From Candidatus Eiseniibacteriota bacterium (GTDB lineage Bacteria; Orphanbacterota; Orphanbacteria; Orphanbacterales; Orphanbacteraceae): DNA of 64,000 bases. Below are positions 29,374 through 54,661 of the stretch, one piece after another (the stretch's first letter is position 1; every line of letters starts with the position of its first letter). The notes under the pieces were generated by a model, which saw nothing but the letters and a program-made list of their open reading frames with translations, was not told the DNA's origin and did no database searches. The stretch is taken from contig JAJCZU010000003.1 in NCBI GenBank assembly GCA_029262235.1, positions 372,001 to 436,000 of the forward strand. The letters run 5' to 3'. The translations under genes and the position numbers were made by a program.

Positions 29374-29450
29374 GCGCGGGTCCTGTCGCGCCCGGCCACC
29401 CCTGCCTCGGCAGGCTCGGCAGGGGTCCCCGTCGGGCGCGCCACCCGCGC
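29374..29450 (-). repeat. Nested palindromic repeat, copy A
   Basis: This is one of three copies of a 75-81 base element (others at 31016-31096 and 54587-54661). Read on the minus strand it has outer arms GCGGGTGGCGCG and CGCGACAGGACCCGC and an inner stem CCCCTGCC / GGCAGGGG around the loop core GAGCCTGCCGAG. A purine run at 29519-29551 (pyrimidine on the minus strand) lies 68 bases upstream in the element's own orientation. The rest of 29323-29594 shows no gene or other clear signal. Confidence 0.85.
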
Positions 29451-29518: not shown

Positions 29519-29551
29519 GAGGGGGAGAAGAGGGGGAGAGGAAGAGGGAAG
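29519..29551 (-). repeat. Polypyrimidine tract (minus strand) linked to repeat copy A
   Basis: There are 33 uninterrupted purines on the + strand, hence pyrimidines on the minus strand. It sits 5' of palindromic repeat copy A when both are read on the minus strand, matching the arrangement at copies B and C. Confidence 0.8.
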
Positions 29552-29630
29552 CACGTGGTGCTAGCCGGCAAGGCGTGCTAAAATCGAAAGAGGCATGCAA
29601 TCGTGCCGACTTCCTCTGGAGCGCCGATCA

Positions 29631-30857
29631 GTGAAGATCGTATTCGCCACTTCCTTCGTATTCCTCACCACGTCGCTGGCTCAGGCTTCGGTGCTCCACG
29701 TGCCTTTAGAATTTACCGCGTTACAGGAGGCTATCGATTCAGCCGCGGTCGGTGACACCGTGCTGGTCGGGCCCGGCACGTATACCGGTAGCGGAAACGT
29801 GAATCTGACGTTTCACGGGAAGGATATCGTGCTGTTATCGAGCGCGGGACCGGAGGCAACGGTCATCGATTGCGAGTCCACGAGCCGCGGGCTGTGGATC
29901 CGGGACGGGGAGACGTTCAACGCCCGACTGCAGGGCTTCACGATTCAGAACGGATGGAGTGATGGTGGCGGGGCTGTTCGCATCGACAGCAGCGACTTCA
30001 CGATTCAGGACTGCCTGTTGTTCAGCAATCAAGCGCCGGGAGCTTTCGGAGGGGCGATTCACGCCGGGCCGGGCGCGGATGTACGGGTGGAGCGATGCGA
30101 GTTGCGTGGGAATTCGGCGCAGTACGGGGGAGCCATGGCTCTGGTTGCGCCGGGCTCCGATGCGCTCGTGTATCATTCGCTCCTTACCGGCAATCGCGCT
30201 GATCGCGGCGGCGCGATTTTCGGCAACTGGATGGAGATCGATTCGTGCACGTTCTCGGGCAATCTCGCGGAAGAATACGGCGGAGCCCTTTATGTGTACT
30301 CATGGCCGGGCAGCTTCATCAATTGCACGCGATCCATATTCTTTGGAGACAGCGCGGAGACCGGTAATGAAATCGTTGACGTTGCCTCCGGTGCGCCCTA
30401 CACGGCCTGTTGCCTGATTGATACGACGAACAGTTCCACTGGCTGGACCGAGCTCTGGCCGGTGTATGGGGATCCGGGGTTCTGCGACCCCGTTCCTGCG
30501 GAAGATGCTCCTACCATTCTGGGCGACTACAGGATCTCGGATTCCTCGCCGGCCACATCGGGTGAATGTGATGTGATCGGAGGGCAGGGCATAGGTTGCT
30601 CAATCGCGACTTCAGTGACGACGGTCGCAACGGATACGCAGCCTGGATTCTATCCGTCCGTCCTGCGTGCGGGAACTCCCATCTTGCTCACCTCTTCAGG
30701 AACCAACCCTGGCACGTATAGAATCTACAGTTTCAACGGCCGCCTGATCGCGTCGGGCAACGCTTACCAGATCGAGACACATGCGATGGATTCCGGTGTC
30801 TACTTCCTGGAAACAACGGACCCCGCGACCGTGACAAGGATCACGATCCTCCGCTAG
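29631..30857 (+). CDS. Secreted right-handed beta-helix protein
   Basis: This protein has about 408 residues and a clean signal peptide (KIVFATSFVFLTTSLAQAS). Residues about 20-270 are beta-helix rungs with AVGDTVLVGPGTYTGSG and repeated Gly-Gly-Ala-Ile or Gly-Gly-Ala-Leu turns (GGAIHAG, GGAMAL, GGAIFG, GGALYV). A GDPGFCDP...GGQGIGC block follows, closely matching the module junctions of the giant protein at 41952-48620. The C-terminus has a short sorting-like domain (IYSFNGRLIASG, SGVYFLETTD, TRITILR). GTG 29631 has GGAG nine bases upstream and gives the compact signal peptide; ATG 29595 in the same frame is an alternative. Possibly a surface polysaccharide-binding or structural protein; no catalytic motif was identified. 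Confidence 0.85.
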   Translation: MKIVFATSFVFLTTSLAQASVLHVPLEFTALQEAIDSAAVGDTVLVGPGTYTGSGNVNLTFHGKDIVLLSSAGPEATVIDCESTSRGLWIRDGETFNARLQGFTIQNGWSDGGGAVRIDSSDFTIQDCLLFSNQAPGAFGGAIHAGPGADVRVERCELRGNSAQYGGAMALVAPGSDALVYHSLLTGNRADRGGAIFGNWMEIDSCTFSGNLAEEYGGALYVYSWPGSFINCTRSIFFGDSAETGNEIVDVASGAPYTACCLIDTTNSSTGWTELWPVYGDPGFCDPVPAEDAPTILGDYRISDSSPATSGECDVIGGQGIGCSIATSVTTVATDTQPGFYPSVLRAGTPILLTSSGTNPGTYRIYSFNGRLIASGNAYQIETHAMDSGVYFLETTDPATVTRITILR

Positions 30858-30885: not shown

Positions 30886-30957
30886 CCCCTTCCTTCTCTT
30901 CTCTTCTCTCCTCTTCTCCTCTTCTCCTCTTCTCTTCTTCTCCTCTTCTCTTCTCCT
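30886..30957 (+). repeat. 72-base uninterrupted polypyrimidine tract
   Basis: There are 72 consecutive C/T bases made mainly of CTCTT and CTCCT units, between the beta-helix gene and palindromic repeat copy B, which starts 58 bases later. Mirror-like pyrimidine tracts of this length can form triplex DNA, and in RNA could bind pyrimidine-tract proteins. The remainder of 30858-31141 holds repeat copy B and small GC dyads, and no gene. Confidence 0.9.
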
Positions 30958-31015
30958 GATTCCTACCGCTGACAAAAAACTGGTTCGTTCGGGGGACCCC
31001 CGATGTTCGAAACCC

Positions 31016-31096
31016 TGTGCGGGTGGCGCGGCGGACGGGGCCCCCGGCCGAGCCTGCCGAGGCCGGGGAGGTGTCCGCCGTGACAGGACCCGCACA
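31016..31096 (+). repeat. Nested palindromic repeat, copy B
   Basis: This 81-base copy has outer arms TGTGCGGGTGGCGCGGCGGA and TCCGCCGTGACAGGACCCGC, and an inner stem CCCCGGCC / GGCCGGGG around GAGCCTGCCGAG. It sits between two convergent genes. Compared with copies A and C, the inner stem differs but pairing is kept. Confidence 0.88.
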
Positions 31097-31141
31097 GCCT
31101 CTCTCGTACTCGCGGCCGGGCCCCCCGGGACGAAAACGCGA

Positions 31142-53691: not shown

Positions 53692-53740
53692 ATCATGGGG
53701 TCCGAATTGCAGTCAAGATGGCAGGGGGAGGGGGATTCGG

Positions 53741-53820
53741 AGCGGAGGGGAGCGGAGGGGAGCGGAGGGGAGCGGAGGGGAGCGGAGGGGAGCGGAGGGG
53801 AGCGGAGGGGAGCGGAGGCG
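53741..53820 (+). repeat. Tandem array of a 10-base unit (8 copies)
   Basis: Eight head-to-tail copies of AGCGGAGGGG occur, the last ending GCG. Two degenerate units recur near 54101-54130 just before the second inverted-repeat element. Being purine-rich, the array may vary in copy number by slippage. Confidence 0.95.
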
Positions 53821-53823
53821 CGG

Positions 53824-53992
53824 GATCGTGCGGTCGGAGCGCGGCTTGCGATCCCTGGCCGGTCGCCTTTGATGGGGGAGATGGCGGGTGGCGGGGATCG
53901 GGGCTTCTGTTGCGTCCGGACGGGCGGGAGCGAGTGCGCCGAAGGCTCCCTCTCAAGTTGGTCTCGCTTCGCCGCGCTCCGACCGCACGATC
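53824..53992. repeat. Inverted-repeat element, copy 1 (~170 bases)
   Basis: Perfect 22-base ends (53824-53845 and 53971-53992) pair with each other and flank about 125 bases. The interior includes a second possible stem, CGATCCC with GGGGATCG, and the block CGAAGGCTCCCTCTCAAGTT. It is closely similar to copy 2 at 54134-54303 and is followed by a purine-rich stretch (54013-54125). Confidence 0.88.
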
Positions 53993-54133
53993 GCGCCCCC
54001 CGGCCCGCGATTGAGGGAAAAAAGGGAAGGGAATCGGAGGCGGAAAGAGGGGAAGGAATGGAGAGTGGCGGAAAGAGAAAGAGGGCGGAGTGGGAGTCGG
54101 AGCGGAGGGGATCGGAGGGGAACGGAGGGGCTG

Positions 54134-54303
54134 GATCGTGTGGCCGGGAGCGCGGCTTGCGATCCCTGGCCGGTCGCCTTTGGTAGTGGAGATGGCGGGT
54201 GGCGGGGATCGTTACGTCTGTTGCGTCCGGACGGGCGGAAAGCGGTGCGCCGAAGGCTCCCTCTCAAGTTGGTCTCGCTGCGCCGCGCTCCGGCCGCACG
54301 ATC
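54134..54303. repeat. Inverted-repeat element, copy 2 (~170 bases)
   Basis: This is a second copy of the element at 53824-53992, with most of the interior identical. In the ends, a T-A pair of copy 1 is replaced by C-G on both arms, and one C-G pair becomes T-G, still paired in RNA. It is followed by a purine-rich stretch (about 54323-54395). Confidence 0.88.
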
Positions 54304-54478
54304 GCGCCCCCCGGCCCCACGATCGAGGGAGGGGAAGGAATAGGAAAGAGGCGGAAGGAGGAAGAGGGGGGCGGACAGAGTAAAAGGCGGAAAAGAGGGC
54401 GAAATGAGGCCGCAGAGCGGTGAGCGGAGACATCCTGGGGCAATCGCCCGCCGGTCGCCCATCCCACCCGTCGCCCCG

Positions 54479-54515
54479 TCTCTCCTCCCTTCCTCTCTTC
54501 TCTTCTCTTCTCTTC
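54479..54515 (+). repeat. 37-base polypyrimidine tract linked to repeat copy C
   Basis: There are 37 consecutive C/T bases, mainly TCTTC units, ending 71 bases before palindromic repeat copy C in the same orientation seen at copy B. Confidence 0.88.
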
Positions 54516-54586: not shown

Positions 54587-54661
54587 GGCGGGTGGCGCGC
54601 CGGGCGGGGACCCCGATCGAGCCTGTCGAGATCGGGGTGCCGCGGCGCGACAGGACCCGCC
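54587..54661 (+). repeat. Nested palindromic repeat, copy C
   Basis: This 75-base copy has arms GGCGGGTGGCGCG and CGCGACAGGACCCGCC and an inner stem CCCCGATC / GATCGGGG around GAGCCTGTCGAG. It lies 142 bases upstream of rpsU. Confidence 0.88.

Follow-up and report, generated by a model that had tools for sequence, protein, structure and literature searches.

In a bacterial genome of 4.47 Mb (11 contigs, 95.5% complete; G000), mostly intergenic hairpin repeats are associated, far above chance and in fixed order and orientation, with pyrimidine tracts on their 5' side. An earlier note had reported such tracts at three copies of one palindromic element, which we call family F1, in a 64,000-nt stretch of contig C3 (positions 372001-436000; this whole stretch is the window, and window coordinates are used below). 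The linkage is wider than was claimed, in that no fewer than four hairpin families besides F1 are tied to the tract as well. We put at about an even chance the reading that these are genus-restricted, non-autonomous hairpin repeats, copied from one intergenic slot to another, beside which the oriented tract is renewed locally.

Two species were compared, G000 and its congener G001, whose assembly is fragmented (830 contigs, 82% complete). Some G001 contigs, C174, C452 and C513 among others, begin or end within these hairpins, and 9 of the 27 F1 copies in G000 lie less than 10 kb from a contig end (hand count), so that the repeats probably cause assembly breaks. The features of the window that concern us are the following:

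29376..29448, minus strand: hairpin A, family F1; DNA fold z = -4.4
29519..29551, pyrimidine on the minus strand: tract of copy A; 33 nt, pure
30886..30957, plus strand: pyrimidine tract of copy B; 72 nt, pure
30951..30970, plus strand: linker after the tract of B, around CTGATTCCTACCGC; conserved in G001
31015..31097 (core 31019-31093), plus strand: hairpin B, family F1; DNA fold z = -4.0
53836..54006, minus strand: F5-type element, copy 2; 92% identical to copy 1, family assigned by eye
54147..54317, minus strand: F5-type element, copy 1; ~170 nt, family assigned by eye
54479..54515, plus strand: pyrimidine tract of copy C; 37 nt, pure
54588..54660, plus strand: hairpin C, family F1; DNA fold z = -5.7

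The coordinates and lengths (72, 37 and 33 nt) given in the earlier note for the three tract-palindrome pairs were right, and their tracts are the three longest pure pyrimidine/purine runs of the window. The three palindromes have a common core, GCGGGTGGCGCG...GAGCCTGYCGA...GACAGGACCCGC, and form strong single-stranded DNA folds (z -4.0 to -5.7). Copy A lies antisense between two plus-strand genes, the tract of copy B begins 28 nt past the stop of a plus-strand gene ending at 30857, and copy C is in a long gap between divergent genes. The core of hairpin A has an identical counterpart at an unrelated site (C6:121341), and its G001 ortholog (L092) has a similar pyrimidine tract. Hairpin B is 97% identical to its G001 ortholog, and the aligned G001 tract is a short remnant of the 72 nt present in G000. 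For hairpin C, the G001 contig breaks within the hairpin. Between the inverted units A and B, at 29595-30857, is a gene for a predicted 420-aa protein with a weak match to the Chlam_PMP repeat. At the G001 locus L104 a block resembling unit A directly adjoins B, and the 420-aa gene may therefore be absent or moved there.

Beside copy C are the two F5-type elements, which form a minus-strand tandem, 311 nt apart (window 53724-54317). Each is preceded on its own strand by a pyrimidine-rich stretch, at 54400-54318 for copy 1 and at 54140-54007 for copy 2, and copy 1 as a whole element folds weakly better than shuffles (z = -1.3). Among the pyrimidine-rich stretches on the F5 strand is an almost perfect array of 10-base units, (CGCTCCCCTC)n, at 53724-53820.

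At least five hairpin types, mostly intergenic, were found in G000: F1 of about 73 bp, the larger F2, F3 and F4, and F5 of about 170 nt, the families F2-F5 being named by us on shared sequence. F1 has 27 full copies by DNA search and 29 by covariance model; pattern enumeration, which is independent of tracts, gave 51 cores of F2 and F3. The motifs are as follows:

F2: ...GCCCATTGGCC....GCCAGGACGAG...
F3: ...GAGCCCCATTGGAGG...GACAGGGCGAAGG...
F4: ...CTTGGCCATTTGGCCAGG...

Rfam covariance models, searched to E 5, matched nothing around A and B, and at 20 loci of other families gave only chance-level miRNA matches; a known structured RNA was rejected on this ground.

Among the 75 F1, F2 and F3 copies with enough flank, tested on fixed cores, 24 had pure pyrimidine runs (25 nt or more) in the 220 nt on the 5' side and one had such a run on the 3' side; for F1 alone the counts were 11 and 1 of 27. 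Pure purine runs were found once on the 5' side and never on the 3' side. By hand arithmetic, about 0.09 copies with a pure pyrimidine run are expected by chance, and a two-sided sign test gives about 1.5e-6. The tract-calling thresholds were our choice and were set at several values; the strict ratio of 24:1 is the cleanest, and a relaxed setting (30 nt, at least 86% pyrimidine) gave the weaker split of 41 of 75 on the 5' side versus 12 on the 3' side. The G001 loci, a few of which had been fetched via their tracts, repeated the pattern, with pure runs 5' of 12 and 3' of 1 of 28. Mean pyrimidine content is maximal about 25-100 nt 5' of the hairpin, and alike in F1, F2 and F3. Only 49 pure pyrimidine runs of at least 26 nt exist genome-wide; some 13 of these, belonging to some 11 copies, sit 5' of F1 hairpins, and most of the remaining long runs are followed by hairpins of F2, F3, F4 or F5. 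The 3' flanks of the G000 tracts fold far more strongly than the 5' flanks (median -58.7 vs -37.2 kcal/mol, Wilcoxon p = 5e-7). Several tracts have a five-base, TTCTC-like periodicity.

The palindrome is not "always linked" to a tract, as had been supposed, since a clear tract is missing at about half of the copies and a pure one at more than half. Across all copies, then, most lack a pure tract, and where tracts occur they are clearly not placed on either side at random. Conserved spacing had also been proposed; order and orientation are indeed kept, but the tract-hairpin gaps are not fixed and range from about 16 to 146 nt. The spacers, said to be dissimilar, contain no duplicated common block outside local tandem copies, but a motif near ATTCCTCACTTCGCG is recurrent between tract and hairpin, and the linker of copy B is possibly related to it. 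The 8-mer TTCCTCAC lies on the 5' side in 14 of 78 copies and on the 3' side in 2.

What is copied was judged from paralogs and from orthologous sites. F1 cores at unrelated sites are 97-100% identical, and their 60-nt 5' flanks, one tandem pair excluded, have 50-63% identity vs a baseline of 56%. Because the flanks of near-identical cores are at random identity, the hairpin does not bring its tract along, and the F1 core spreads, or is converted, alone. Orthologous G000 and G001 cores are 79-90% identical at 5 of 7 sites, which is below the 97-100% identity of each such copy to its best paralog; in one of these five pairs (L092/L034) the figure is depressed by 8 additional nt at the boundary of the G001 match. 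At the orthologous site L082/L077 an F1 core in G001 and an F2 core in G000 stand within the same outer arms; both have a purine run on the compared strand, which is the pyrimidine tract on the core's own strand, and the letters of these runs are unalignable next to near-identical adjoining flank.

The tract is labile, and grows or vanishes while the hairpin stays. With the hairpin present in both species, about 170 nt of purine-rich sequence is found in G001 and none in G000 at L084/L032, a tract of more than 100 nt is found in G000 only at L065/L216, and the tract differs or is absent at L058/L233; the pair L224/L059 was left out of the comparison. The L065 hairpin (C8:8156, F2) also has an extra short hairpin in its apical part, which the G001 ortholog L216 lacks. 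At L144/L019 the 5' half of the hairpin is lost in G001, and the 3' half and the tract are kept; this locus was rejected as an empty insertion site, given that retention of the 3' half indicates a partial deletion, and no clean empty site was found among the ortholog pairs examined. Tandem copies that include spacer and hairpin, some with a pyrimidine-rich stretch, occur at C1:9484/9652, C6:463/658 and C8:128.9-129.4 kb, the last (L068) being an array in which F4 hairpins alternate with pyrimidine tracts.

In the F1 stem, changes on both sides occur at 9 of 22 pairs, and some of the GU counts in this analysis come from L035, L036 and L040, whose 3' arm is misaligned because an extra small hairpin (GTGTGGC...GCCACAGG) sits within it. 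The F1 stem is extended outward by copy-specific complementary bases, by 4.60 bp vs 1.72 bp when flanks were shuffled among copies (0 of 2000 shuffles), and in G001 by 4.33 vs 2.61 (0 of 2000). Template switching can make and keep perfect stems without selection (PMC8794818), and either selection or template switching can be the source of the stem covariation. Stem mismatches have no strand preference overall (G.T 72, A.C 79; F4 is the exception at 11:1), a weak test in that the count takes in fixed consensus mismatches. Strand-specific selection on RNA stems was rejected, with the same reserve, on this lack of overall asymmetry.

The hairpin-tract system is limited to one genus. Both genomes of the genus contain F1, and none of 39 others does, five of these 39 being from other genera of the family; a scan of GTDB r220 contigs with a core pattern gave no match. 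A protein search brought up named relatives at no more than about 64% identity, among them Omnitrophota and Latescibacterota. True F2 and F3 cores are likewise confined to the genus, single matches elsewhere having been judged by eye. Long pyrimidine runs are present in the other genera of the family too, most of the examples inspected being coding in appearance (by eye), and their 3' flanks have no hairpin excess over the 5' flanks (median -41.9 vs -42.8 kcal/mol, p = 0.84). The idea that the tracts are a general habit of the family was rejected on the five other genera.

The favoured reading would run as follows. The hairpin types, at least five, would occupy mostly intergenic "slots"; a core would be copied into further slots through insertion or gene conversion, and outer arms and flanks would stay local. 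A pyrimidine run would form and be renewed locally, on the side that is 5' when the core is read in its own orientation, and would grow and shrink like an imperfect microsatellite about 25-100 nt off, often behind a ATTCCTCACTTCGCG-like linker. We infer that the identical cores are due to copying, that tracts lengthen by slippage, and that some property of the pair, either functional or mutational, holds the tract on one side; gene conversion alone could be the source of the identical cores. A further proposal, to which we give little credence, is that cores of several families are exchanged in fixed slots and that the presence of a core, taken in its own orientation, brings about the growth and upkeep of the run 5' of it through an enzyme or a replication process. 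Y1 transposase (PF01797) had 0 matches in G000 (95.5% complete), control genomes being positive, and reverse transcriptase (PF00078, RVT_1) had 0 matches in the same genome; RAYT/IS200 mobilisation and a reverse-transcriptase route were rejected on these results.

The earlier note had suggested a composite unit, either a mobile one with two functional parts or a landing track plus a structural end. The association, with its fixed order and orientation, is borne out, and two-part mobility is not supported. That tract, spacer and hairpin move together is suggested by the local tandem copies and by the block resembling unit A beside B in G001, but identical hairpins at distant sites have no common 5' flank, and orthologs sharing a hairpin differ in the tract or lack it. 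A composite mobile block was rejected for the dispersed copies on the random identity of their 5' flanks, and as a general account it is very improbable. Another reading is a transcript-end module, in which a C/U-only, unstructured Rho-loading (rut-like) track would follow a gene, a downstream hairpin would pause polymerase or protect the RNA 3' end, and selection would keep order and orientation. The genome encodes Rho, the tract composition fits a C-rich, G-poor rut-like stretch, and orthologous tracts remain pyrimidine-rich despite diverged letters. Gene context, taken from codon-usage ORF calls short of full annotation and from locus counts made by hand, divides the families. At 16 of 19 loci the F2, F3 and F5 tracts have a gene of their own strand as upstream neighbour, and they often lie 7-113 nt past its stop. 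Of the 10 F1 loci, 8 have an opposite-strand gene upstream, 5 of these 8 being placed between divergent genes, and 2 have a same-strand one. Because the F1 context is the opposite, a single terminator role does not cover all families; a Rho-type 3'-end role would fit F2, F3 and F5 and not F1, and the landing-track proposal likewise would fit the positions of the former and not those of the latter. Many hairpins, moreover, have no tract, and nothing in the stem mismatches outside F4 points to folded RNA of the tract strand. As an explanation of the whole system we regard the transcript-end module as unlikely.

We give a similarly low weight to a functionless by-product of mutation, in which the large hairpin or cruciform would stall replication, the adjacent stretch would expand by slippage, and template switching would keep the arms complementary. 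The fast change of tract length and letters where flanks are conserved, the five-base periodicity, and the capacity of template switching to produce perfect stems all point this way. By itself, however, such a process leaves unexplained why the tract is one-sided relative to a nearly symmetric core, and why it is of C and T only. Under the favoured reading of local renewal, the tract may serve at transcript ends or may be a by-product of mutation.

Bacteria commonly have interspersed hairpin repeats. A second component that is not copied along with them and yet recurs on one and the same side of hairpins from several families is, to judge from our literature searches, undescribed. The two related species, with orthologous sites that have or lack the tract and that carry different cores, offer a natural comparison, which would help to tell whether palindromes and simple-sequence tracts are maintained by selection or by changes that replication drives.

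Rho-dependent terminators have at the rut site a C-rich, G-free, unstructured track followed by structure, and the F2, F3 and F5 tracts after genes resemble them in this. The F1 units differ in lying mostly between divergent genes or antisense, and the system as a whole differs in its dispersed near-identical cores and its pure C/T runs, which reach 72 nt. In bacterial intrastrand-triplex motifs the tract is part of the fold (PMC4666352); these motifs, too, combine a hairpin with homopyrimidine/homopurine sequence in one intergenic locus and vary locally, but here the run is tens of bases from the hairpin. MITEs are recognised by terminal inverted repeats with a target-site duplication and by clean empty sites in relatives; in the present repeats the flanks lengthen the inverted repeat, and the ortholog pairs examined gave no clean empty site. 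Yeast mitochondrial GC clusters, e.g. GC42, are described as GC-rich non-coding palindromes that spread, merge and shuffle (PMC4478555), and they and other mitochondrial hairpin elements share with our repeats the occurrence of different forms at the same homologous site. GC clusters differ in being mitochondrial, in their AT-rich context and in having short direct repeats at insertion sites, and the passages drawn on here report no pyrimidine tract for them. Besides GC clusters, the nearest likeness is to REP/REPIN sequences, RAYT-associated short intergenic hairpin repeats found, e.g., in Pseudomonas fluorescens SBW25 (PMC3116915, PMC2817692). Here too a repeated, mostly intergenic palindrome exists in many copies, as short hairpin repeats in tens of copies and several types per genome, with compensatory changes and local clusters. 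In G000, unlike REP/REPIN systems, Y1/RAYT was not detected, sequence and architecture are different, a pyrimidine tract is held on a fixed side, and cores are exchanged within conserved outer arms.
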